Of a stretch of 64,000 nt of DNA, positions 4,861 through 56,221 are shown one piece after another. Made by a program: the position numbers and the translations under genes. This DNA is from Dictyobacter vulcani (lineage in GTDB: Bacteria; Chloroflexota; Ktedonobacteria; Ktedonobacterales; Ktedonobacteraceae), in the NCBI RefSeq assembly GCF_008974265.1, contig NZ_BKZW01000003.1, positions 1 to 64,000 on the forward strand. The letters are read 5' to 3'. The notes under the pieces were generated by a model that had not been told where the DNA came from, did no database searches, and saw only the letters and a program-made list of their open reading frames with translations. How positions within the stretch are numbered: position 1 is the stretch's first letter; each line of letters opens with the position of its first letter.

Positions 4861-6087
4861 TTAATTCGAGCCTTCATCTTTAACGCACCAGGCGCTGATA
4901 ATCTGCTCCAGTTTTTCCTGGCCGCTCAAGAAATGTTCAACGGGAATACTCTCATTAGGTTGATGCGCTTGAGCCAGGGCCCCAGGACCACAGATATACG
5001 AGTTTATGCCCAGGTGTTGGAAGTTACCTGCGTCGGTGCCATAAGGAGCACCAGTTACGACTTTTTTCTCCATTACCCGACTGAGCAGGGCACTGAGCGA
5101 AGTGTGCATTGGCGATTTCATCGGTGGGGTGGAATGGAGATGTTCAATCACCACATCGCATTCTGGATCAAACTCGCGCATCTTGCTGGCCACTTTCTTT
5201 TCGATGCGCTCTTTTAACGTCCCAATAATTTCTTCAGAGCTATCACCAGGTGAGACACGCAGGCTCATCTTCAATCTGCAGGTGTCCGCAATCATATTGC
5301 CCGCCAGACCGCCATTAATGATGCCGCAATTGAAGGCAGAGGGAGGACACTCAGGAAAGAGTTCGATGTTTTCTGGCGTGATGCGTTCCTCTAGCTCTGC
5401 ATCGATACCAGCAATAATCTGGATCACATCGCCCATCTTTTCAATGGCATTCAGGCCCTTTTTCGGTACGCTGCTATGGCCGCCTTTCCCATGCACGACC
5501 AGATCAAAGGTGGCATATCCTTTATGTGCCGGGAAAATCTCAAATTCTGTTGGCTCACCAATCAAGGCCACTTCTGGCATTGGTAAGGTCTCTTTAAAGA
5601 ACTGTGGGAGGATCTTGATCAACCTGCCAGAACCCTGGCCAGCTACCTCTTCATCATAGGTAAAAATAAAGAGTAGCGGCCGCTTGAAATCCTGCTGCTG
5701 TTTCAGGACCTGTTTGGCGGCGACCATTGCCTGTGCCATGGCTATCTTCATATCTGCGGTGCCGCGTCCATAGATGCGCTTGCCATCCGTCTGCATCACC
5801 TGTGGATCAGTTTTCCAGCCCGGTTGTCCATCGAAGGGAACCACATCAATATGTCCCGAAATCATCAGGCCATTGCTCACCGCCGGACCATACCAGGCCA
5901 GCACTGACGCTTTTTTTACGCCCTCTACATCATCGACAAGTATCTTTACATTAAAACCAATCTCTTTCAGATAGTTTTCAAGATAAGCGACGGCTTCCAG
6001 ATTGCTATGAGCACTGACCGTATCAAAGCCAATCAACTGGCGCGAAACTTCCCATAATTCGCTTTGTTGGATATCTGTATTACTCAA
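4861..6087 (-). CDS. argE: M20-family deacylase, ArgE/DapE type (probable acetylornithine deacetylase)
   Basis: A metal-dependent amide hydrolase of the M20 family, cytoplasmic, about 408 residues. The metal-site motifs appear in order: GHIDVVPFDG (His), YGRGTADMK (bridging Asp), TYDEEVAGQGS (catalytic and metal Glu pair), IGEPTEFEIFPAHKG (the ArgE/DapE dimerisation-domain entry) and a C-terminal AQAHQPNE His. ArgE removes the acetyl group from N-acetylornithine in arginine synthesis; without other arg genes nearby the substrate is not certain and a related N-acyl amino acid deacylase is possible. I choose the TTG start at 6087 because AAAGGATGG sits about 10 bases before it; an ATG at 6162 in the same frame gives 25 extra residues without homology to the family start. 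It is divergent from the yafY-type regulator, with 212 bases between them. Confidence 0.8.
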   Translation of the reverse strand: MSNTDIQQSELWEVSRQLIGFDTVSAHSNLEAVAYLENYLKEIGFNVKILVDDVEGVKKASVLAWYGPAVSNGLMISGHIDVVPFDGQPGWKTDPQVMQTDGKRIYGRGTADMKIAMAQAMVAAKQVLKQQQDFKRPLLFIFTYDEEVAGQGSGRLIKILPQFFKETLPMPEVALIGEPTEFEIFPAHKGYATFDLVVHGKGGHSSVPKKGLNAIEKMGDVIQIIAGIDAELEERITPENIELFPECPPSAFNCGIINGGLAGNMIADTCRLKMSLRVSPGDSSEEIIGTLKERIEKKVASKMREFDPECDVVIEHLHSTPPMKSPMHTSLSALLSRVMEKKVVTGAPYGTDAGNFQHLGINSYICGPGALAQAHQPNESIPVEHFLSGQEKLEQIISAWCVKDEGSN

Positions 6088-6223
6088 GTATATTTTCCAT
6101 CCTTTTAAAGATATGCGGGCTGCATCCTTAGTAATAGTAACACAATAGCTAAATCCAGGCATAGAAAAACACAGGTATTTTTTCTATTAAAACTTTTAAA
6201 CCTTGTAGTGTTGCTGGTGATTC

Positions 6224-6262
6224 ATGACATACGTTGTCATATTTATCTGTTAGGATTACAAT
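6224..6262 (+). promoter_or_regulatory. Promoter with overlapping palindromic operator for the YafY-type regulator
   Basis: TTGTCA (6234-6239), a 17-base spacer and TACAAT (6257-6262) form a good sigma70 promoter. The -35 box lies inside the palindrome ATGACA-tacgt-TGTCAT (6224-6240). A palindrome over the -35 of a transcription factor gene suggests autorepression (inference). It could also affect the divergent deacylase. Confidence 0.6.
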
Positions 6263-6299
6263 AGTGAAGCGAATGTATAACCATTGCGGGGAGTGTGCT

Positions 6300-7255
6300 A
6301 TGCGTGCAGATCGTTTGTTATCTATCATGTTGCTTTTGCAAGTATATCGCAGAATGACGGCTCGTGAACTGGCGCAGCGGCTAGAGGTATCGGAGCGCAC
6401 CATTCATAGAGATATGGAGGCACTCAGTATTTCTGGTATTCCCGTGACGGCCGAGCGGGTACTGGTGGTGGTTGGAGTTTGCTGGAGGAGTATCGGACCA
6501 ATCTGACCGGACTGAGCGAGCCGGAGATACAGTCCCTTTTCCTGGCTCAGCCAGCGCATCTCTTAAATGATCTTGGCCTGCACAAAGCTTCTGAGGCGGC
6601 GCTGATCAAGTTGCTGGCTGTCTTGCCTGCTATGCATCGTCGTGATGCCGAATATGTGAGCCAGCGCATACATATCGATGGGAGTGGATGGCATAATCGC
6701 GAAGAGGCTATTCCTGCCCTACCCCTTCTTCAGCAATCGCTCTGGCAAGAGTGCAAGATCTGTTTTACCTATTTACGGGGTGACAACCAGGTCGAGCGCC
6801 TGGCCGATCCGCTTGGACTGGTGGCGAAAGGGAGCACCTGGTATTTTGTGGCTGCGATTGATGAACAGATACGCAGCTATCGTGTGTCGCGGATCCAGGC
6901 GGTTCAACTATTGGAGCAAGCGTGTGTGCGGCCACCAGATTTTGACCTGGCCGCCTTCTGGAAACAATCATCCCAGAACTTTACCTCCTCACTACGTTGC
7001 TATCGAGCCAGCATCAACGCGAGTCCTGAAGCCTTGCCACGTATCTATGGATCGAGCAGATTATTTCGTATCGAGCAAACCGACATCGTCGATGCTCATG
7101 GTTGGACCACCTTTCACCTGCGCTTTGACAATGATTATGAAGCATGTGCCTATATCTTAAGCTTTGGTAACCAGGTCGAAGTACTTGAGCCTGCCGACCT
7201 CCACCAGCAAATCATCCAGCTCGCCCAATCAGTCCTGGCGTGCCGGCAGCACTAG
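6300..7255 (+). pseudogene. YafY-type HTH-WYL transcriptional regulator with a single frameshift
   Basis: The reading frame from ATG 6300 (site GGGGAG upstream) starts MRADRLLSIMLLLQVYRRMT and contains the winged-helix recognition segment SERTIHRDMEALSISGIPV. At about 6456-6459 the expected AERGTGGGWSLLEEYRTNL is broken; restoring one G in the CGGGT run joins it to the second frame, which runs to 7255. That part is the WYL ligand-binding region (DPLGLVAKGSTWYFVA and RSYRVSRI) with the usual C-terminal extension. YafY/WYL regulators are DNA-binding proteins that sense small molecules or nucleic-acid-like ligands. The repaired protein would be about 318 residues, normal for the family. The stop codon TAG lies at the IS junction at 7252-7255, so the insertion may have set the C-terminus. 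Confidence 0.85.
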
Positions 7256-8106
7256 GGCGTGTTTGCAAATAGCCGATAGAAAGGAGTATGAGAAGAGGCG
7301 AATTGAGCGATGAGCAATGGGAAAAGCTGGCCCCCTTGCTGCCGCCGCAAAAGCCCCATGTGGGTCGTCCAGCACATGATCATCGTCTGATTCTGAATGG
7401 CATTCTTTGGATTTTACGGACGGGAGCCCCTTGGAGAGATCTTCCCGAGCGATATGGTCCGTGGAGAACCGTGGCAAGCCGATTTTATCGCTGGGTCAAG
7501 GCGGGAATCTGGCAGCACGTCCTGCAAGCCCTGCAGCAACAAAGCGATGCCGCAGGCCACATTGATTGGGAAACGCATAGCGTTGATAGTACCGTGATTC
7601 GTGCCCACCAACATGCAGCAGGAGCAAAAGGGGGATCAAAATCAAGAAGCATTAGGCAAGAGTCAAGGCGGTTTCAGCACGAAAGTGCATTTGCGAGTGG
7701 AAGGTCAAGGGAAACCGATGACGGTTGTGCTTACGGCAGGACATCGCCATGAAACGACCAAATTCGAATGCCTGATGGAGCAAGGGGCTGTCAAGAGAGC
7801 AGGACGAGGCCGTCCCAAGCTACGGCCAAAGCGGGTCCTGGGAGACAAAGCCTACAGTAGTCGTAAGATCCGGCGGTACCTCAAAAAGCGAGGAATTGAT
7901 TACACGATTCCCCGCCGCAGCGACGAGACGCGCACCGGGCCATTTAACCGAGCCGTATATAAAAAGCGGAACCGCGTTGAACGCACGATCAATCGTCTCA
8001 AGCAGTTTCGGCGAGTAGCCACCCGCTATGAGAAGCGGGCGGTCAACTTCCTGGCTATGGTCACGCTTGCCTCTATTCTGCTTTGGTTATGATTTGCAAA
8101 CACACC
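7256..8106 (+). mobile_element. IS5-family element (IS427 group)
   Basis: The element is about 850 bp. Terminal inverted repeats are GGCGTGTTTGCAAAT at the left and the complement of ATTTGCAAACACACC at the right, with one mismatch. CTAG flanks it on both sides (7252-7255 and 8107-8110), consistent with a CTAG or TA target duplication. It carries one transposase gene split over two frames. Both ends and the DDE residues are present, so it may still be active. Confidence 0.85.
7288..8092 (+). CDS. IS427-type DDE transposase, made by frameshifting
   Basis: The first frame (7288-7752) begins MRRGELSDEQWEKLAPLLPP, typical of IS5-family IS427-group transposases, and holds the first catalytic Asp in HSVDSTVIRAH. 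The second frame, +1 relative to the first, is open before 7601 and runs to 8092. It carries the second Asp in VLGDKAYSSRK and the catalytic Glu in KRNRVERTINRLKQF. The DDE triad is therefore complete only in a fusion of about 268 residues. The frames cross around 7626-7641, where CAAAAGGGGG and TCAAAATC are plausible slippage sites; such two-frame organisation is common in this group. Read alone, the first frame after AGAKGGSKS departs from the family. Confidence 0.85.
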
Positions 8107-8284
8107 CTAGTAGTCTGTCAGAAATCATGTGATGGGGAGGCGGGGATGCTAGCGAGCATGCCGGGGGCATGATCAAGCGGCGAGCCCCTTGACTGGGGGA
8201 TCGGGGCTGTGCCCCGGCCATCTCCCCCATGCCGCCCGCGTAGCGGGCGCACAACTCATCACATGGAGTTTGACAATGTACTAG
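8107..8284 (+). mobile_element. MITE with IS630-like ends and a GC-rich hairpin core
   Basis: An about 175-bp non-coding element. The ends are imperfect inverted repeats: left CTAGTAGTCTGTCAGA with ATGTGATG further in, right (complement) CTAGTACATTGTCAAA with the same ATGTGATG. The tips resemble the IS630-type element beside it (TACTCTGTCA). The core has several hairpins: GCATGCTCGC-type repeats near 8143-8175, GGGGCTGTGCCCC near 8205, and CGCCCGCgtaGCGGGCG near 8234. The core is shared with the repeat at 10146-10300. Confidence 0.7.
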
Positions 8285-9513
8285 TACTCTGTCATCCTTG
8301 ATTTGATAAATGGGAACAAAAGGAGTATCCTTGAGTCACGAATCAAAAAACCGATCTCAAGGAGGCATCCATGAAGAAGTATAGCATCCAGTTAGACGCA
8401 GAACAACGCAAGCTGTTAGAGAGTATGCTCACCGGAGGCAAAGCTTCAGCGCGCAGCCAGACCCATGCGAGGATTTTACTGAAAGCCGATCAAGGAGAGC
8501 ATGGAGCGGGTTGGGAAGATCAGCAGATTGCTGAAACCCTAGGCGTGGGAACGGCAACCGTAGGACGGGTCCGTCAACGCTTTGTGGAGGGAGGGCTGCT
8601 GGATGCACTCGTGCGGCGTCCCCAGCCGGAACGACCGGAGAAACGGAAAATGAATGGGGAACTGGAAGCGCAGTTGGTCACGCTCGCGTGTAGTCAGACG
8701 GAAGGAGGGCAAAAGCGCTGGACGATGCGCATGCTCGCGGACAAATTGGTGCAGTTGGGGTACGTCGATCAGATCAGCCACCAAACGGTGTGGGTGACGT
8801 TAAAAAAAATGAACTCAAACCGTGGCTAAAGAACCAGTATTGTATTCCCCCGGAGGCTAATGCAGATTTTGTGTATCATATGGAAGATGTGCTGGAGGTG
8901 TACCAGCGTCCGTATGATCCAAAGCGTCCAAAGATCTGCATGGATGAGGGAAGTAAACAGGTGTTGGCCCATACCCGCGAGCCGATTCCGATGGAAGCGG
9001 GTGAACCCGAACGCATCGATTATGAGTACGAACGGAAAGGAGTGTGCAGCGTGTTTGTGGCGATGGAACCCGAAACCGGGACCTGTCAGGTGCGTGTGAG
9101 TAAGCGGCGCACGAAAAAGGATTGGGCACTCTTTTTGCGCGAGATCATTGACGTCCAGTATCCCCATGCGGACAAGATTGTGTTGGTGATGGACAATCTC
9201 AATACCCATACCCCCTCTTCGTTTTACGAGACGTTTGAACCAGCCGAGGCCCGCCGATTGACCGAGAAACTAGAAATCCACTACACGCCCAAGCATGGGA
9301 GTTGGCTGAATATGGCCGAGATCGAACTGTCCATTTTAGCGCGTCAATGCTTGTCCGATCGCTTTCCAAGCAGAGAGGCGCTTGCCGCTCAGGTGGATGC
9401 CTGGCAACGTGAGCGCAACCAGGCAAAAGTAACGATCAACTGGCGTTTTACCACCGCGGATGCGCGCATCAAACTCAAACGCCTTTATCCATCAATTGAA
9501 CAATGACAAACTA
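8285..9513 (+). mobile_element. IS630-family insertion sequence
   Basis: The ends are TACTCTGTCATCCTTGA at the left and, read from the right, TAGTTTGTCATTGTTCA. CTAG is present on both sides (8281-8284, 9514-9517), fitting the TA target duplication of IS630/Tc1-mariner elements. It encodes a transposase split by a -1 frame change at an A8 run. The transposase motifs are intact. Confidence 0.85.
8371..9506 (+). CDS. IS630-type DDE transposase, made by -1 frameshifting
   Basis: The first frame (8371-8829; AAGGAGG upstream) encodes the N-terminal helix-turn-helix part: IAETLGVGTATVGRVRQRF is the recognition region. The second frame is -1 relative to the first and continues to 9506 with the catalytic core: ICMDEGSKQ (first Asp), VLVMDNLNTHT (second Asp) and NMAEIELSILAR (Glu). 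The crossover is the A8 run at 8802-8809, a classic slippery site, where TLKKMNSNRG becomes TLKKNELKPWLKNQYCIPP. The fused protein is about 378 residues, normal for IS630 transposases. I infer programmed frameshifting rather than decay because both halves are otherwise intact. Confidence 0.88.
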
Positions 9514-9585
9514 CTAGCCACTGCAACCAATGGACATCTGAGCAAGAAGCGCTAAACATTGACGAGCGGAAAGGCGAAGCGTTTC

Positions 9586-9614
9586 TGGACACGTCAACGT
9601 GTGCCCTATATAAT
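9586..9614 (+). promoter_or_regulatory. Promoter of yjbQ
   Basis: TGGACA (9586-9591), a 17-base spacer and a perfect TATAAT (9609-9614) precede yjbQ by 46 bases, so the gene has its own promoter independent of the IS upstream. Confidence 0.7.
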
Positions 9615-9659
9615 TCACACGATGTTCACATCCAAAGGAGGCTTACAATCGATACGCAA

Positions 9660-10049
9660 ATGAAAACGCTAACTATTCATACCAGGAAGAAAGACGAGAT
9701 CAAGGATATTACCGAGACGGTTGAAGAATATGTACAGCAAGGCAAAAATGATAGCGGTCTCTGCATGCTCTTTGTGGCCCACACCACCTGTGCTATTACG
9801 ACAGCTGATCTCGATCCAGGAACGGACCTGGATTTTCTGGATGCTTTAAGAGCCATTTTGCCTGATCTCAACTATCGCCATCCGCATGATCCGGAACACG
9901 CTCCTGATCATATCCTCTCCTCCCTGATCGGGCCTTCCCTGGTTATTCCCTATACAAACCGTCGCCTGTTACTTGGCATCTGGCAGCGCATAGTGCTGGT
10001 TGAGCTTGATGGTCCCCGTCAGCGAACGGTCCAGATATCCTGCCTCTAA
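9660..10049 (+). CDS. yjbQ: YjbQ/UPF0047 family protein
   Basis: A 129-residue single-domain protein of the YjbQ (UPF0047) family. The characteristic FVAHTTCAITTADLDPG, the HPHDPEHAPDHILSSLIG histidine-rich region and LGIWQRIVLVELDGP near the end are all present. In E. coli the family has a weak thiamine-phosphate synthase activity, but its physiological role is unsettled. The ribosome site AAAGGAGG (about 9633-9640) is about 20 bases before the ATG at 9660, which is too far. In the same frame an ATC codon at 9648 has ideal spacing and would add four residues, so a non-ATG start is possible. It is monocistronic: its own promoter lies upstream and a terminator follows at 10071. Confidence 0.85.
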   Translation: MKTLTIHTRKKDEIKDITETVEEYVQQGKNDSGLCMLFVAHTTCAITTADLDPGTDLDFLDALRAILPDLNYRHPHDPEHAPDHILSSLIGPSLVIPYTNRRLLLGIWQRIVLVELDGPRQRTVQISCL

Positions 10050-10070
10050 CAGCATTTCGTCTATTCCTCA

Positions 10071-10108
10071 AAATCCCCGAAAGAAAGAGAAACCTTCGGG
10101 GATTTTTG
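10071..10108 (+). terminator. Intrinsic terminator after yjbQ
   Basis: The stem AAATCCCCGAA pairs with TTCGGGGATTT across a 13-base loop, followed by a short T run, 22 bases after the yjbQ stop. Confidence 0.85.
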
Positions 10109-10145
10109 CTACCCACGGTTCTGCAGATCACTCAATCGTAACTAT

Positions 10146-10300
10146 TAGACTGTCAGACATTATGTGATGGGGAGGCGGGGATGCAAGGGGCGGCGAGCCC
10201 CTTGACTGGGGGATCGGGGGCTGTGCCCCCGGTATTTCCCCCCCCCTCCCGCCCGCGTAGCGGGCGCACAGCCCATCAAACGAAGTTTGACAAAGTACTA
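10146..10300 (+). mobile_element. MITE with GC-rich hairpin core, second copy
   Basis: An about 155-bp relative of the element at 8107-8284. The left end is TAGACTGTCAGACATTATGTG and the right end (complement) TAGTACTTTGTCAAAC, imperfect inverted repeats of the IS630 type. The core has GCAAGGGGC..GCCCCTTG, GGGGGCTGTGCCCCC and CGCCCGCgtaGCGGGCG. It has no coding capacity. Confidence 0.7.
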
Positions 10301-10307
10301 TCGCTTC

Positions 10308-22002: not shown

Positions 22003-24090
22003 ATGATGAGCGAAAATATCAAAGAAGCCTATAGACAACAAGGCTGGATCAAGATGGTGTCACTGGTTGCCGTGGTGCTTGGGGCTTTGCTCCTCCTGGC
22101 GAGCTCAGGAGGCTTTCCACCCTGGGCCTGGCGTTTCCTGGTGCAGGTGCTACAGCAACTTCCGACTCTCTGGAAGGCCCAGGGGGCAGCAATCCTGTTA
22201 CCACTCCTGGGCCTCTGCTTGCTTTCGCTATCACTTCTCATCTTATGGATAGCGATTGGCGTGCTGGGTTTTAAAATTGGCACCCATATCCTGGCTGACT
22301 TTAAAGTTCCACCATCCTCTTTTGAGGACGATTTGCGCGAGGCAGAACTGCTGGCCGAACAGGCGCTGCAGGAGCAGGATTTTGCTGAGGATGATTTAAC
22401 CGAGCCGGTCCCGCTGCGTCCAGTGCCTGCTGCTCGGTCACAACAGAGCCAGTCATATTCACAGCCCGGGGTGCGCCGCTCCCGACCTTCGCGTCCAATC
22501 CAGGAACCACAAACACAGGCCGTCCCTGTTCCTGCTATGCGTTCGTCCGCCTATGCTCCAGCCGCGCAGGCGGTAGGGGATATTGGTTTTCCTGGTCTGT
22601 CATATCCAACTCCTATCTATCGCCAGCCAGGCAATAGCCGTGGGAGCGCGACTGGCAATCGTCAGACCACAAATCTGCGCCAACCATCTTACCCAAATAC
22701 GCAGGATAGATTTGATGAGCCTCTAGAGTATGACGATGCTCAGTCGAGACCCTCGCAAAAATCTTTGCGGGTTGTCCCGCCAACCGCGTTGCGTGAGCGA
22801 CCCGATACGTCTGAAGATGTCAATGTCGAAGCAGCTTTCGCGGAAATGGTTGAGCGCGAAGAACGTCAGCAGGCCGAACAAGCAAAGCAGCGGCAATTTG
22901 AGCGGCAGCAGGCTGAGCGTGAGCAAGCTGAACAAGCAAAGCAGCGGCAATTTGAGCAGCAACAGGCTGAATATGCCCGACAACAGCAATTGGATCAGCC
23001 GCAATTTGAATCGCCAGAAGACGAGTCACTCGACGTAGACCTCTGGGAAACACGGCCTGGAGATCTTGAAGAAGACGACCTTGACCTGGAGCAGTATGAT
23101 CCTCTGGATGATCTGGATGATACCATACCGGCCTCTGAACGCGCTGCTCGTATGCAAGCCGCTTTATTAGCTCCTGATGCCGAAGAATTTGATTTTGATC
23201 AGCAGCATCTGCCACCGGTGAAAAAGAGCAGGCCTGCTCCAGTTCCAGAGGTTAGCGAGATTGAACCTGCACCGCGTTTTGTGGTTGGCATCGGTTTAGA
23301 TCCTGGTTTGACGCGTAAGGATTCTCCCAATGAGGATAGCCTGTTTACCATTCAAGGTATGCGTGTGACCGATGAAGGATCCAAGCCAGCGGGACTCTTT
23401 ATGGTCGCGGATGGTATGGGGGGCCATGCGAATGGACGTGAGGCCAGCCGTACCGCCATCCACGCTATCAGCGATGTCATTGTGCCCGCTCTTCTGCGGG
23501 ATGTCAGCGGGAGTAGCGCGAAAGAAGAAAAGACCCTGTTCCAGGATATGCTCAAGGATGGTGTTCATCAGGCAAATCTGGCTCTTTATCGCCGTAATCG
23601 GGAGAGGACCAGGATGATGGGTACCACTCTTACGGCCGCTCTGGTGGTGGATCGGATGGCATATATTGTCAATGTTGGGGATAGCCGTACCTATCTTTAT
23701 CGCGCCAGCGAGGGTCTGACACAGATTACTCATGATCATTCAGTTGTGGCGCGCCTCGTTGAGGATGGCGTGATCACCCGTGATGAGGTCTATACCCATC
23801 CCCAGCGCAACCAGATCTATCGTTGCCTGGGCGAGCATGCGTCCGTTGAGATCGACTCATTTGCTATTCCGTTGCAAGTCAATGATATCTTGCTTCTCTG
23901 CTCGGATGGTTTATGGGAAATGGTACGCGATTCAGCCCTCGAAAAAATCATGGCTTCCTCTGCGCATAATCCATCCCAAATGAGCGCCATGCTTGTACAG
24001 GCCGCGCTTAACCATGGTGGAGCCGATAACATCAGTGTTATTGCCGTTGGCCTCACCAGTGGCGAAGATGCCGTGAACTGGATGTTATAA
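22003..24090 (+). CDS. Membrane-attached PP2C-family protein phosphatase
   Basis: A 695-residue protein. Residues 15-95 form a small membrane domain with two helices around GGFPPWAWRFLVQVL. About 110-270 is a disordered Pro/Gln/Arg linker. About 275-340 is a charged, Gln-rich coiled coil built from a duplicated 54-bp unit (EQAKQRQFE twice), then a Glu/Asp-rich stretch. The PP2C catalytic domain (about 425-690) has all main motifs: DPGLTRKDSPNEDSLF, MVADGMGGHANGREAS, MGTTLTAALV, YIVNVGDSRTYL, LLLCSDGLWEM and GGADNISVIAVGL. It should dephosphorylate Ser/Thr sites at the inner face of the membrane. The N-terminal domain is shared with the C-terminus of the permease at 17601. Start ATG 22003 or 22006. 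Confidence 0.88.
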   Translation: MMSENIKEAYRQQGWIKMVSLVAVVLGALLLLASSGGFPPWAWRFLVQVLQQLPTLWKAQGAAILLPLLGLCLLSLSLLILWIAIGVLGFKIGTHILADFKVPPSSFEDDLREAELLAEQALQEQDFAEDDLTEPVPLRPVPAARSQQSQSYSQPGVRRSRPSRPIQEPQTQAVPVPAMRSSAYAPAAQAVGDIGFPGLSYPTPIYRQPGNSRGSATGNRQTTNLRQPSYPNTQDRFDEPLEYDDAQSRPSQKSLRVVPPTALRERPDTSEDVNVEAAFAEMVEREERQQAEQAKQRQFERQQAEREQAEQAKQRQFEQQQAEYARQQQLDQPQFESPEDESLDVDLWETRPGDLEEDDLDLEQYDPLDDLDDTIPASERAARMQAALLAPDAEEFDFDQQHLPPVKKSRPAPVPEVSEIEPAPRFVVGIGLDPGLTRKDSPNEDSLFTIQGMRVTDEGSKPAGLFMVADGMGGHANGREASRTAIHAISDVIVPALLRDVSGSSAKEEKTLFQDMLKDGVHQANLALYRRNRERTRMMGTTLTAALVVDRMAYIVNVGDSRTYLYRASEGLTQITHDHSVVARLVEDGVITRDEVYTHPQRNQIYRCLGEHASVEIDSFAIPLQVNDILLLCSDGLWEMVRDSALEKIMASSAHNPSQMSAMLVQAALNHGGADNISVIAVGLTSGEDAVNWML
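22873..22970 (+). repeat. Two tandem 54-bp units inside the PP2C gene
   Basis: The unit beginning GCCGAACAAGCAAAGCAGCG at 22873 recurs at 22927 with a few substitutions and the same reading frame. It encodes the Gln/Glu-rich coiled coil. In-frame units of this kind change length easily by slippage. Confidence 0.85.
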
Positions 24091-26414: not shown

Positions 26415-26864
26415 ATGCAAGAGACTGAACAGGGCCGTGAACCCGGCCGCTATGGCTTTGAAGAAATTGCTGCTAACCAGCTCGAAGCCTGGCCTAATGC
26501 CTATCCTGATCGTGATTATGTCACCCATTTTGAAATTCCTGAGTTTACCTGTCTTTGTCCCCGGTCTGGCTTTCCAGATTTCGCTACTATTATTGTTGAT
26601 TATGTGCCAGATAAAAATGTTGTTGAATTGAAGAGCTTGAAGTTGTATATTAATGCCTATAGAAATCGTCAGATCAGCCACGAGGCATCGACCAATGCCA
26701 TTCTGGATGATCTGGTAGCTTTGCTTGCACCACGCTGGATCAGAATTGTGGGCGACTTTACTGTTCGTGGCAACATCAAAACGGTAATCACTACTGAGTA
26801 TGCAATCCCCGAATACCACGGTCCACGGCCCGAGTTGAGACGGTTTATGCCTGCTATTGGCTAG
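26415..26864 (+). CDS. queF: NADPH-dependent 7-cyano-7-deazaguanine reductase
   Basis: A 149-residue enzyme that reduces the nitrile of preQ0 to the amine preQ1, the last step before insertion into tRNA. The length fits the short, YkvM-type class. C48 in [11 protein letters not shown] is the catalytic Cys that forms the thioimide, the Asp of PDF follows, and [20 protein letters not shown] is the NADPH-binding signature (normally E(S/L)KSxKxYxxxxRNxxxFHE). GGAGG lies six bases before the ATG. It heads the set queF-queC-queD-queE-folE on the + strand, 45 bases before queC. QueF shares the tunnelling fold with FolE and QueD, also encoded here. Confidence 0.96.
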
Positions 26865-26908
26865 CTCTATTCTCTGTATTCATCAGCGCATCCAGAAAGG
26901 AAATTATT

Positions 26909-27661
26909 ATGCCTGCAAACAACCGGGCGGTGTTAATTGTCAGTGGGGGGATGGATAGTTGTGTCCTGGCCCATTATTATGCGGCTGCGGGTTTTCACCT
27001 GCACCTGATCTCGTTCGACTACGGACAAAAGCATGTGAAGGAGCTTACCTACGCGGAACGCTATATTGCTGATCTACGTTCACGCTACAGTCAGCTTGAG
27101 ATTGTCCATAATACTATTGATTTACCAATCGCCAGTTTGTTGACCAATTCGGATTCCGCACTGATCAATACTGAGAAGCAGATGCCTCATGGCCATTATA
27201 CCGATGACAGCATGAAGGCCACGGTTGTGCCCTACCGTAATCCCAATATGCTCCTGCAAGCGGCCACCGTTGCCTGGAACGAGCATGCCAGTGTGGTCGC
27301 CTATGCCGCGCACCAGGGCGATCATGCTCAGTATCCAGACTGCCGCAAAGTCTTTGTTGACGCCTTCAATGATTTACTGGCCGTCGCCATGGAAGGCCAG
27401 AAGATCGAGGTTGAATCGCCATTTATGCGCTTCACGAAAGCCCAGATTGCTCAGCTTGGTGCCAGCCTGAACGTTCCCTTTGATCTTACCTGGAGTTGCT
27501 ATGAAGGTGGCAACTCAGGACTGGGTGATCAGCACTGTGGTATCTGTGGTACCTGTGTCGAACGCTACGAAGCATTCAAACTCGCCGGCGTCCCAGATCC
27601 CACCAGCTACGCCAACGACCCTGAACAATACCTCCACATCCCAGGCAAACGAGAGAGCTAA
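26909..27661 (+). CDS. queC: 7-cyano-7-deazaguanine synthase
   Basis: A 250-residue ATP-dependent enzyme that converts 7-carboxy-7-deazaguanine and ammonia into preQ0. VSGGMDSCVLAHY (residues about 10-22) is the PP-loop ATP site (SGGxDS). VPYRNPNMLLQAATVAW and YAAHQGDHAQYPDC are QueC signatures. The zinc site is C-x7-10-C-x2-C-x2-C near the end (WSCYEGG, HCGICGTCVERYEAF). AAAGGA precedes the ATG. Downstream of the stop lies an unusual 44-bp tandem repeat array before queD, so queC may be transcriptionally separated from the rest of the pathway. Confidence 0.97.
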   Translation: MPANNRAVLIVSGGMDSCVLAHYYAAAGFHLHLISFDYGQKHVKELTYAERYIADLRSRYSQLEIVHNTIDLPIASLLTNSDSALINTEKQMPHGHYTDDSMKATVVPYRNPNMLLQAATVAWNEHASVVAYAAHQGDHAQYPDCRKVFVDAFNDLLAVAMEGQKIEVESPFMRFTKAQIAQLGASLNVPFDLTWSCYEGGNSGLGDQHCGICGTCVERYEAFKLAGVPDPTSYANDPEQYLHIPGKRES

Positions 27662-27667
27662 GTGTAA

Positions 27668-27955
27668 GACAGACAAGCGGGATCGTTAAGAGCCGCCTAT
27701 TCACATTTTGACCAGGCAAGCGGGAATGTTTAAGGACAACACCTTAGCGTCTCGACCAGGCAAGCGGGAATGTTTAAGGACAACACCTTAGCGTCTCGAC
27801 CAGGCAAGCGGGAATGTTTAAGGACAACACCTTAGCGTCTCGACCAGGCAAGCGGGAATGTTTAAGGGCAACACCTTAGCGTCTCGACCAGACAAGCGGG
27901 ATTGTTAAGGGCAACAACTTAACAATTCGACCAGACAAGCGGGATTGTTAAGGGC
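27668..27955 (+). repeat. 44-bp tandem repeat array between queC and queD
   Basis: Units start at 27710, 27754, 27798, 27842 and 27886; the first three are identical, the fourth differs by one base, the fifth is 43 bases and more diverged. Further diverged copies lie at 27668-27709 and from 27929. Each unit begins GACCAGGCAAGCGGGA and contains a small hairpin TAAGG-acaaca-CCTTA. The units are contiguous with no unique spacers, so this is not a CRISPR array. It has no long frame and separates queC from queD by 439 bases. Confidence 0.92.
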
Positions 27956-28031
27956 CGCGGCCCTTAACCTGGGGTCCGGGGCTGCGCCCCGGTTCACTCT
28001 CCCCTCCCCCGCCACCGCAGGTGGCGTGTCA
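27929..28031 (+). repeat. GC-rich multi-hairpin cassette (third copy)
   Basis: After AAGCGGGATTG comes the perfect 20-base palindrome TTAAGGGCCGCGGCCCTTAA, then CCGGGGCTGCGCCCCGG, a pyrimidine tract (CTCTCCCCTCCCCC) and GCCACCgcaGGTGGC. The order (AAGCGGG start, hairpin, GGGGCTGyGCCCC hairpin, pyrimidine tract, final hairpin) is the same as in the cores at 8107-8284 and 10146-10300. Here it is joined to the tandem array rather than to IS630-like ends. Confidence 0.7.
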
Positions 28032-28100
28032 CAACCTTAATAGAGGAAGATCGTAGGGAAGTGCTTACAGACCATAGAAAACATCATGCGAGGAAATCTG

Positions 28101-28556
28101 ATGACTAAATACGCAATTATCACCAAAGAATTTGCTTTTGAAGCCGCCCATCACCTACCAGGTCATCGCGGCAAATGTCGTCGTCCTCATGGTCACTCCT
28201 ATCGCCTCCAGATTTCCTTGCGCGGCCCCATTATCGCAGCGCCAGGAGAATCCAGTGATGGAATGGTCATGGATTTCGACGACCTGAAAAGCATCGTTAA
28301 TGCAACGATTATCGAGAAGCTTTCGGATGCTGTACCCCGTGGCGAGGCTGCTGATCCGCTGCTAAAAGGCGGTATGGACCATAATGACCTGAATGCTGTG
28401 ACGGGTATTCGTACCACCGCTGAAAATCTTGTGCACTGGATGTGGGATGCCCTGGTGGCAGGTGGGATACCCGATGTGCTCCTTTACCGCATCAGATTAT
28501 GGGAAACAGAAAAAGGTTATGTGGAGATTACACACGACGAGCGGGGGGAGGCATAG
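28101..28556 (+). CDS. queD: 6-carboxy-5,6,7,8-tetrahydropterin synthase
   Basis: A 151-residue enzyme of the tunnelling fold that turns dihydroneopterin triphosphate (the FolE product) into 6-carboxytetrahydropterin. FEAAHHLPGHRGKCRRPHGH carries zinc His residues and the catalytic Cys in GKCRRPHGHSY. MVMDFDDLKSIV and MDHNDLNAV (catalytic His/Asp) follow, and TAENLVHWMWD and VRLWET-like RIRLWETEKGYVE close the domain. I choose ATG 28101 because GAGGAAA lies seven bases upstream; ATG 28086 has no site. The stop is only three bases before queE, so the two are translated from one message. Confidence 0.96.
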   Translation: MTKYAIITKEFAFEAAHHLPGHRGKCRRPHGHSYRLQISLRGPIIAAPGESSDGMVMDFDDLKSIVNATIIEKLSDAVPRGEAADPLLKGGMDHNDLNAVTGIRTTAENLVHWMWDALVAGGIPDVLLYRIRLWETEKGYVEITHDERGEA

Positions 28557-56069: not shown

Positions 56070-56221
56070 GTGTGATGGCAGTGCTATCCAATTCTGGTTG
56101 CAAGCGGGGATGCAAGGGGCGGGCCAGCCCCTTGCCGGAGCACGAGGCGTCCTCGCATCTCCTCCCTCTTCTCCCGCCGAAGGCGGGACAAAAAGAGAAT
56201 TGGAAAGCCCTGCGTGTGATG
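56070..56221. mobile_element. 136-bp MITE with 8-bp target duplication
   Basis: Inverted ends GCAGTGCTATCCAATTCT (56078-56095) and, from the right, GCAGGGCTTTCCAATTCT (16 of 18 match). The flanks are GTGTGATG on both sides (56070-56077, 56214-56221), an exact 8-bp duplication. Inside is a relative of the GC-rich cassette (CAAGCGGGGATGCAAGGGGC, GCCCCTTGCCGG, then CCCGCCgaaGGCGGG). 55886-56069 otherwise has no gene. Confidence 0.8.

Follow-up and report, generated by a model that had tools for sequence, protein, structure and literature searches.

The gap between queC and queD in the soil bacterium Dictyobacter vulcani (Chloroflexota) carries a tandem array of 44-bp units within the queuosine pathway cluster, raising the question of whether it is a regulatory device of that pathway or something that arrived from elsewhere. 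Analysing the 64,000-nt stretch that holds the locus (the window), the rest of the genome and related genomes, we put a probability of about 0.85 on the following reading: one copy of a dispersed REP-like element, non-coding and with three hairpins, landed between the two genes in this lineage, and the array is its 5′ tail.

The array between queC and queD

Using Pfam, we recovered the surrounding genes as the initial annotation had named them, together with a queF-like gene upstream; further cluster genes encode a radical SAM protein (in the QueE position) and GTP cyclohydrolase I. The distance from the queC stop to the queD ATG is 439 nt, as had been reported, and direct reading of this gap gave an array of seven units (27669–27971). 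The features, all on the forward strand, are as follows.

26415–26864, forward: queF-like gene (Pfam QueF, 7e-34)
26909–27661, forward: queC (Pfam QueC, 7e-55)
27669–27709, forward: decayed first unit, 41 bp, with the element 5′ end AGCGGGATCGTTAAGAGC followed by unrelated sequence (direct reading, pattern searches)
27710–27841, forward: three identical 44-bp units, GACCAGGCAAGCGGGAATGTTTAAGGACAACACCTTAGCGTCTC (TRF, direct reading)
27842–27885, forward: fourth 44-bp unit, with one change (direct reading)
27886–27928, forward: 43-bp unit, closest to the 5′ end of the full element, with an 11-bp stem (direct reading, folding)
27929–27971, forward: last unit, 43 bp, running on into the full element (direct reading)
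27938–28026, forward: complete 89-nt three-hairpin element, the 'GC-rich cassette' (covariance model R2, trained on 17 sequences with this copy among them; 101 bits, E 1.8e-18 in the window)
28101–28556, forward: queD, with start ATG at 28101 and upstream GAGGAAATCTG conserved in sister species (Pfam PTPS, 1e-28)

The tandem structure is real. TRF reported 27710–27953 with a period of 44, 5.6 copies, 95% matches and a score of 397, and lag-44 identity reached 57% across the whole gap, against a best value of 35% at any lag of 20–149 in 500 mononucleotide shuffles. Direct reading confirmed the three identical 44-mers, for which recent local expansion, as first proposed, is the natural reading. 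The units are contiguous, with no unique spacers between identical repeats, in agreement with the earlier exclusion of CRISPR. The hairpin TAAGG-acaaca-CCTTA occurs in the three identical units and the fourth has gcaaca; its folding surpasses that of shuffles only weakly (z −1.35). The stretch 27891–27933, by comparison, folds as an 11-bp stem with z −4.7.

Apart from the decayed first unit, all units share the element 5′ end, (GACCAGRCA)AGCGGGAWTGTT(T)AAGG, and the second half of the 44-bp unit reads AACAACTTAACAATTC. The array thus repeats just the 5′ end of the element and the arm of its first hairpin, and its last unit is the full element. Accordingly, although the units do lead into a GC-rich cassette, the two are not separate features but one repeat (27938–28026), and the range first given for the array, to 28031, takes in the whole 89-nt element, whose last base is 28026.

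We next compared the locus with that of relatives. Among ten relatives with an adjacent queC–queD pair, the gap measures 15–221 nt and none of the ten has an R2 match in it; in the two closest, D. kobayashii and the Dictyobacter genome G003, it is 32–33 nt. The ribosome-binding region of queD, GCGAGGAAATCTGATG, is the same as in D. kobayashii. Because the relatives' gaps are free of the element, its presence here is a lineage-specific insertion and the array is no conserved component of the queuosine pathway, which also rules out a conserved que-specific leader. With the gap as nucleotide query, matches within the same genus and family fell on its 3′ part, the element, rather than on the whole gap. 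Separately, the family is represented in the que locus of D. arantiisoli by an independent copy (L053:648-740), which lies upstream of queC and on the opposite strand.

A dispersed three-hairpin family

The element consists of a first hairpin, H1 (GTTAAGGGC/GCCCTTAAC), a second, H2 (CCGGGGC/GCCCCGG), followed by a pyrimidine tract, and a third, H3 (CGCCACC/GGTGGCG). Across 17 aligned copies, 95% of cells in the three helices are paired and 9 pairs have changed on both sides. The covariation score of 0.227, compared with 0.103 in shuffles, was reached by 0 of 500 shuffles, and slid controls collapsed. These comparisons support a structure kept as either single-stranded DNA or RNA. At six loci (L258, L259, L244, L261, L253 and L046), H3 is lengthened to 15–20 bp with arms that vary between copies yet stay complementary; such arms might stem from fold-back DNA synthesis or mean that the hairpin serves as a terminator.

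A search of the genome for the unit elsewhere, as the initial annotation had proposed, found the element of which the unit is the 5′ part: there are at least 104 R2 matches at E ≤ 0.001 among the 108 candidates scored. Contig C3 (719 kb) alone holds 27, which extrapolates to roughly 280 genome-wide. All 26 C3 copies analysed lie outside ORFs of ≥150 amino acids, even though such ORFs make up 78% of the contig. The element is therefore shown to be an abundant extragenic family. D. arantiisoli carries at least 108 copies (R2, E ≤ 0.001), and among the matches listed there are 102 in G003, 72 in D. kobayashii and 61 in Ktedonosporobacter rubrisoli. Another genus member, G002, has 3 among the matches listed, so that numbers within the genus range from 3 to more than 100 per genome. 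Two genomes of one genus in the wider order (G025 and G034) gave 50 and 25 weak matches, with best E values of 9e-6 and 7e-5. In a 250-genome sample of the phylum, searched at a stricter threshold and with fewer candidates scored per genome than the own genome, the matches listed were confined to the same family, apart from one small genome that gave two weak hits. The open-licence literature that we searched contained no description of repeats of this kind in Ktedonobacteria, and this REP-like family is apparently undescribed.

Many copies are cargo of mobile elements. On C3, 16 of the 26 copies lie between both ends of IS630-type MITEs and 4 between ISAs1-type ends (20 of 26 in total). The window holds three such MITEs and one autonomous relative, listed below with the autonomous IS4-like element found elsewhere in the genome.

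8107–8285, forward: IS630-type MITE with a diverged core (8151–8249)
8281–9520, forward: IS630-family insertion sequence with matching ends, no core and its transposase in two frames
10142–10302, forward: IS630-type MITE with a diverged core (10174–10266)
56079–56212, forward: ISAs1-type MITE with a core (56103–56188)
C1:2776979, C1:3102116, C1:3212499, C1:3629751, C2:1099457, C3:234924 and C5:114467: IS4-like copies L292-L298

The IS630-family insertion sequence directly adjoins the MITE with matching ends at 8107–8285, and an autonomous ISAs1-family element with ends matching the ISAs1-type MITEs lies at C3:657575-658909; R2 found no match inside either autonomous element. We found no terminal inverted repeats flanking the window copy and rejected simple MITE status for it; of the copies sampled in G003 and D. 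kobayashii, most are without IS630- or ISAs1-type ends. Since copies of the core are found between unrelated inverted repeats as well as with none, the core is not simply the deletion product of one insertion sequence. The core at 10174–10266 recurs with its flanks, letter for letter, on C2 (L214, about 5000–9000), which suggests that the window segment of about 8000–10300 may be duplicated there.

Seven copies of the 1516-bp IS4-like element are present; they are identical, show 12-bp target duplications and in five cases have inserted into the H1 loop of a core. The element encodes a DDE_Tnp_1 domain, for which the closest NCBIfam model is IS4, with a score below the cut-off of that model. 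In D. arantiisoli, a MITE with IS4-like ends, itself holding two inverted cores, also sits in H1 loops. A RAYT/Y1 transposase was considered as the mover and is unsupported: only 1 of 18 Y1_Tnp loci in the own genome has a copy within 1.5 kb, and D. arantiisoli has one Y1 hit against at least 108 copies.

One-sided tails and the origin of the array

Arrays comparable to that in the window occur at other loci. In the own genome, four truncated copies of about 77 bp each precede a full element at C2:1061178-1061510, 23-bp partial units do so at L213 and L222 and 31-bp units at L224 (minus strand), while at L308, 23-bp units stand ahead of a core that the IS4-like element has since interrupted. 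Three loci of D. arantiisoli (L300, L301 and L302) have three 52–53-bp units and then one core each. At the loci checked, the partial 5′ modules lie upstream, on the first-hairpin side, and arrays of partial 3′ modules downstream were not found, although a few neighbouring full copies give 3′-end matches; this polarity was checked on about 90 copies with a test that counts 20-mer matches rather than events. Complete tandem copies exist too, of 93 bp in D. kobayashii and about 112 bp in L205. The window also has a 54-bp tandem duplication at 22864–22970, in a coding region (Gln/Glu/Ala-rich; 695-aa ORF 22003–24090).

On the reading that we favour, one copy of the element would have entered the queC–queD gap of this Dictyobacter lineage. 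Slippage or unequal recombination at H1 would then have lengthened its tail, which may be why partial units pile up on the first-hairpin side. Another route to the same outcome starts from a MITE that inserts repeatedly into the H1 loop; deletion between the long 3′ halves would afterwards leave only 5′ units. Several observations speak for such a route: an autonomous IS4-like element of the same genome targets exactly this loop (five of seven copies), the core has about 20 nt 5′ of the loop and about 65 nt 3′ of it, so that loss of 3′ copies would be favoured, and the 52–53-bp units of D. arantiisoli run from the IS4-like left end to the target in the loop. Because those units start and stop at these points, the D. 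arantiisoli arrays suggest a loop insertion and then a deletion between two long 3′-half copies; nested insertion without collapse does not apply, as the arrays have no 3′ counterparts on the opposite side. In the window array, however, the units have no recognisable IS4-like end, and other tails (the 23-bp units, L308) resemble products of simple slippage at microhomology of a few bases. We regard the route as unlikely here. That the array, or its copy number, is an assembly artefact is far less probable still: identity of three units over 132 bp in a genome assembled in 7 contigs might raise the suspicion, but the flanking units differ from one another as well as from the three identical units, and tails of an analogous kind occur at other loci and in the assemblies of other species.

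The initial annotation had proposed that the array attenuates expression of queD-queE-folE. In that reading it would be an RNA attenuator or stability element tuning these genes relative to queF-queC, in keeping with its location in a co-directional gene cluster, the many hairpins in the predicted fold of the gap and the mRNA stabilisation and attenuation reported for REPs (PMC12306157). Yet folding of the complete gap is only slightly better than that of shuffles (z −1.32). We found no terminator-like (GC-rich hairpin and T run) or promoter-like site in 27500–28200, with 0 terminators on both strands. Rfam gave no match up to E 5 in 26800–28300, and hence none to a preQ1 riboswitch; at gathering score it gave nothing but a tRNA in the whole window, and on nine loci with copies of the element it gave chance-level matches at most. 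The element is moreover absent from the gaps of ten relatives and present at many unrelated loci. Attenuation therefore finds no support in these searches, and we consider a dedicated attenuator improbable. Because the element is scattered in more than 100 copies through the genome and occurs in relatives, the array looks like debris of a repeat family, and not like a switch dedicated to queuosine synthesis. Hairpins in the que operon RNA would be at most a passive modifier, through exonuclease slowing or mild polarity, and probably not a purpose-built attenuator. The tandem, non-CRISPR and recently expanded nature of the array thus stands from the earlier interpretation, which had missed its identity as a dispersed repeat.

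More tentatively, the core may be a DNA module that propagates separately or is selected, adopted independently as MITE cargo by the IS630-type, ISAs1-type and IS4-like families. The H1 loop would then be the IS4-like landing site, with insertion, and then collapse between the long 3′ halves, acting as a ratchet that builds one-sided arrays, that in the queC–queD gap among them. We hold this broader scheme to be possible rather than probable.

Relation to known repeat systems

These findings correct a tempting regulatory reading, as the array in the queuosine operon would be the stuttered end of a repeat spread across the genome, and define a REP-like family of Ktedonobacteria that is abundant and apparently undescribed. 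Its anatomy is unusual, combining three hairpins, carriage by unrelated MITEs, a landing site for an insertion sequence and one-sided tandem tails. Such loci provide natural replicates for how palindromic repeats grow tandem arrays and affect the operons they land in.

REPs and BIMEs comprise GTAG- and CGTC-tagged palindromic repeats (PMC3733652). The present family has the general features of REP-like repeats (high copy number, extragenic location, palindromic sequence, singles and clusters), and like REPs and BIMEs it is patchy between related species and occurs as singles, inverted pairs and tandem clusters with flanking DNA segments (PMC3733652). In contrast to REPs, which are 20–40 bp with one hairpin, the element is about 88–89 nt with three. 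Inspection of the ends of the aligned copies revealed no GTAG or CGTC tag, the conserved 5′ end being AGCGGG(G)AT, and the element is without the association with a Y1/RAYT transposase gene, flanked by the repeats, that marks GTAG-type REPs. The layout therefore resembles that of REPs and BIMEs, while both defining marks of the GTAG/CGTC classes, tag and Y1 association, are missing.

As with MITEs, most C3 copies lie in short elements bearing the terminal inverted repeats of autonomous insertion sequences of the same genome; unlike MITEs, the core is also found with unrelated inverted repeats or with none, as in the window copy.

The IS4-like target site may also resemble that of IS231A, GGG-N5-CCC, which is symmetric, flanked by G/C and associated with a long target duplication. 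REPs themselves serve as targets for insertion sequences, including IS621 of the IS110 family and ISRm22 of the IS4 family, the latter inserting at the palindrome axis (PMC1525189). The IS4-like element likewise inserts in the middle of a dispersed repeat that is palindromic, but it differs from IS621 and ISRm22 in involving a new host lineage and a new repeat, with a 12-bp target duplication inside the H1 loop.
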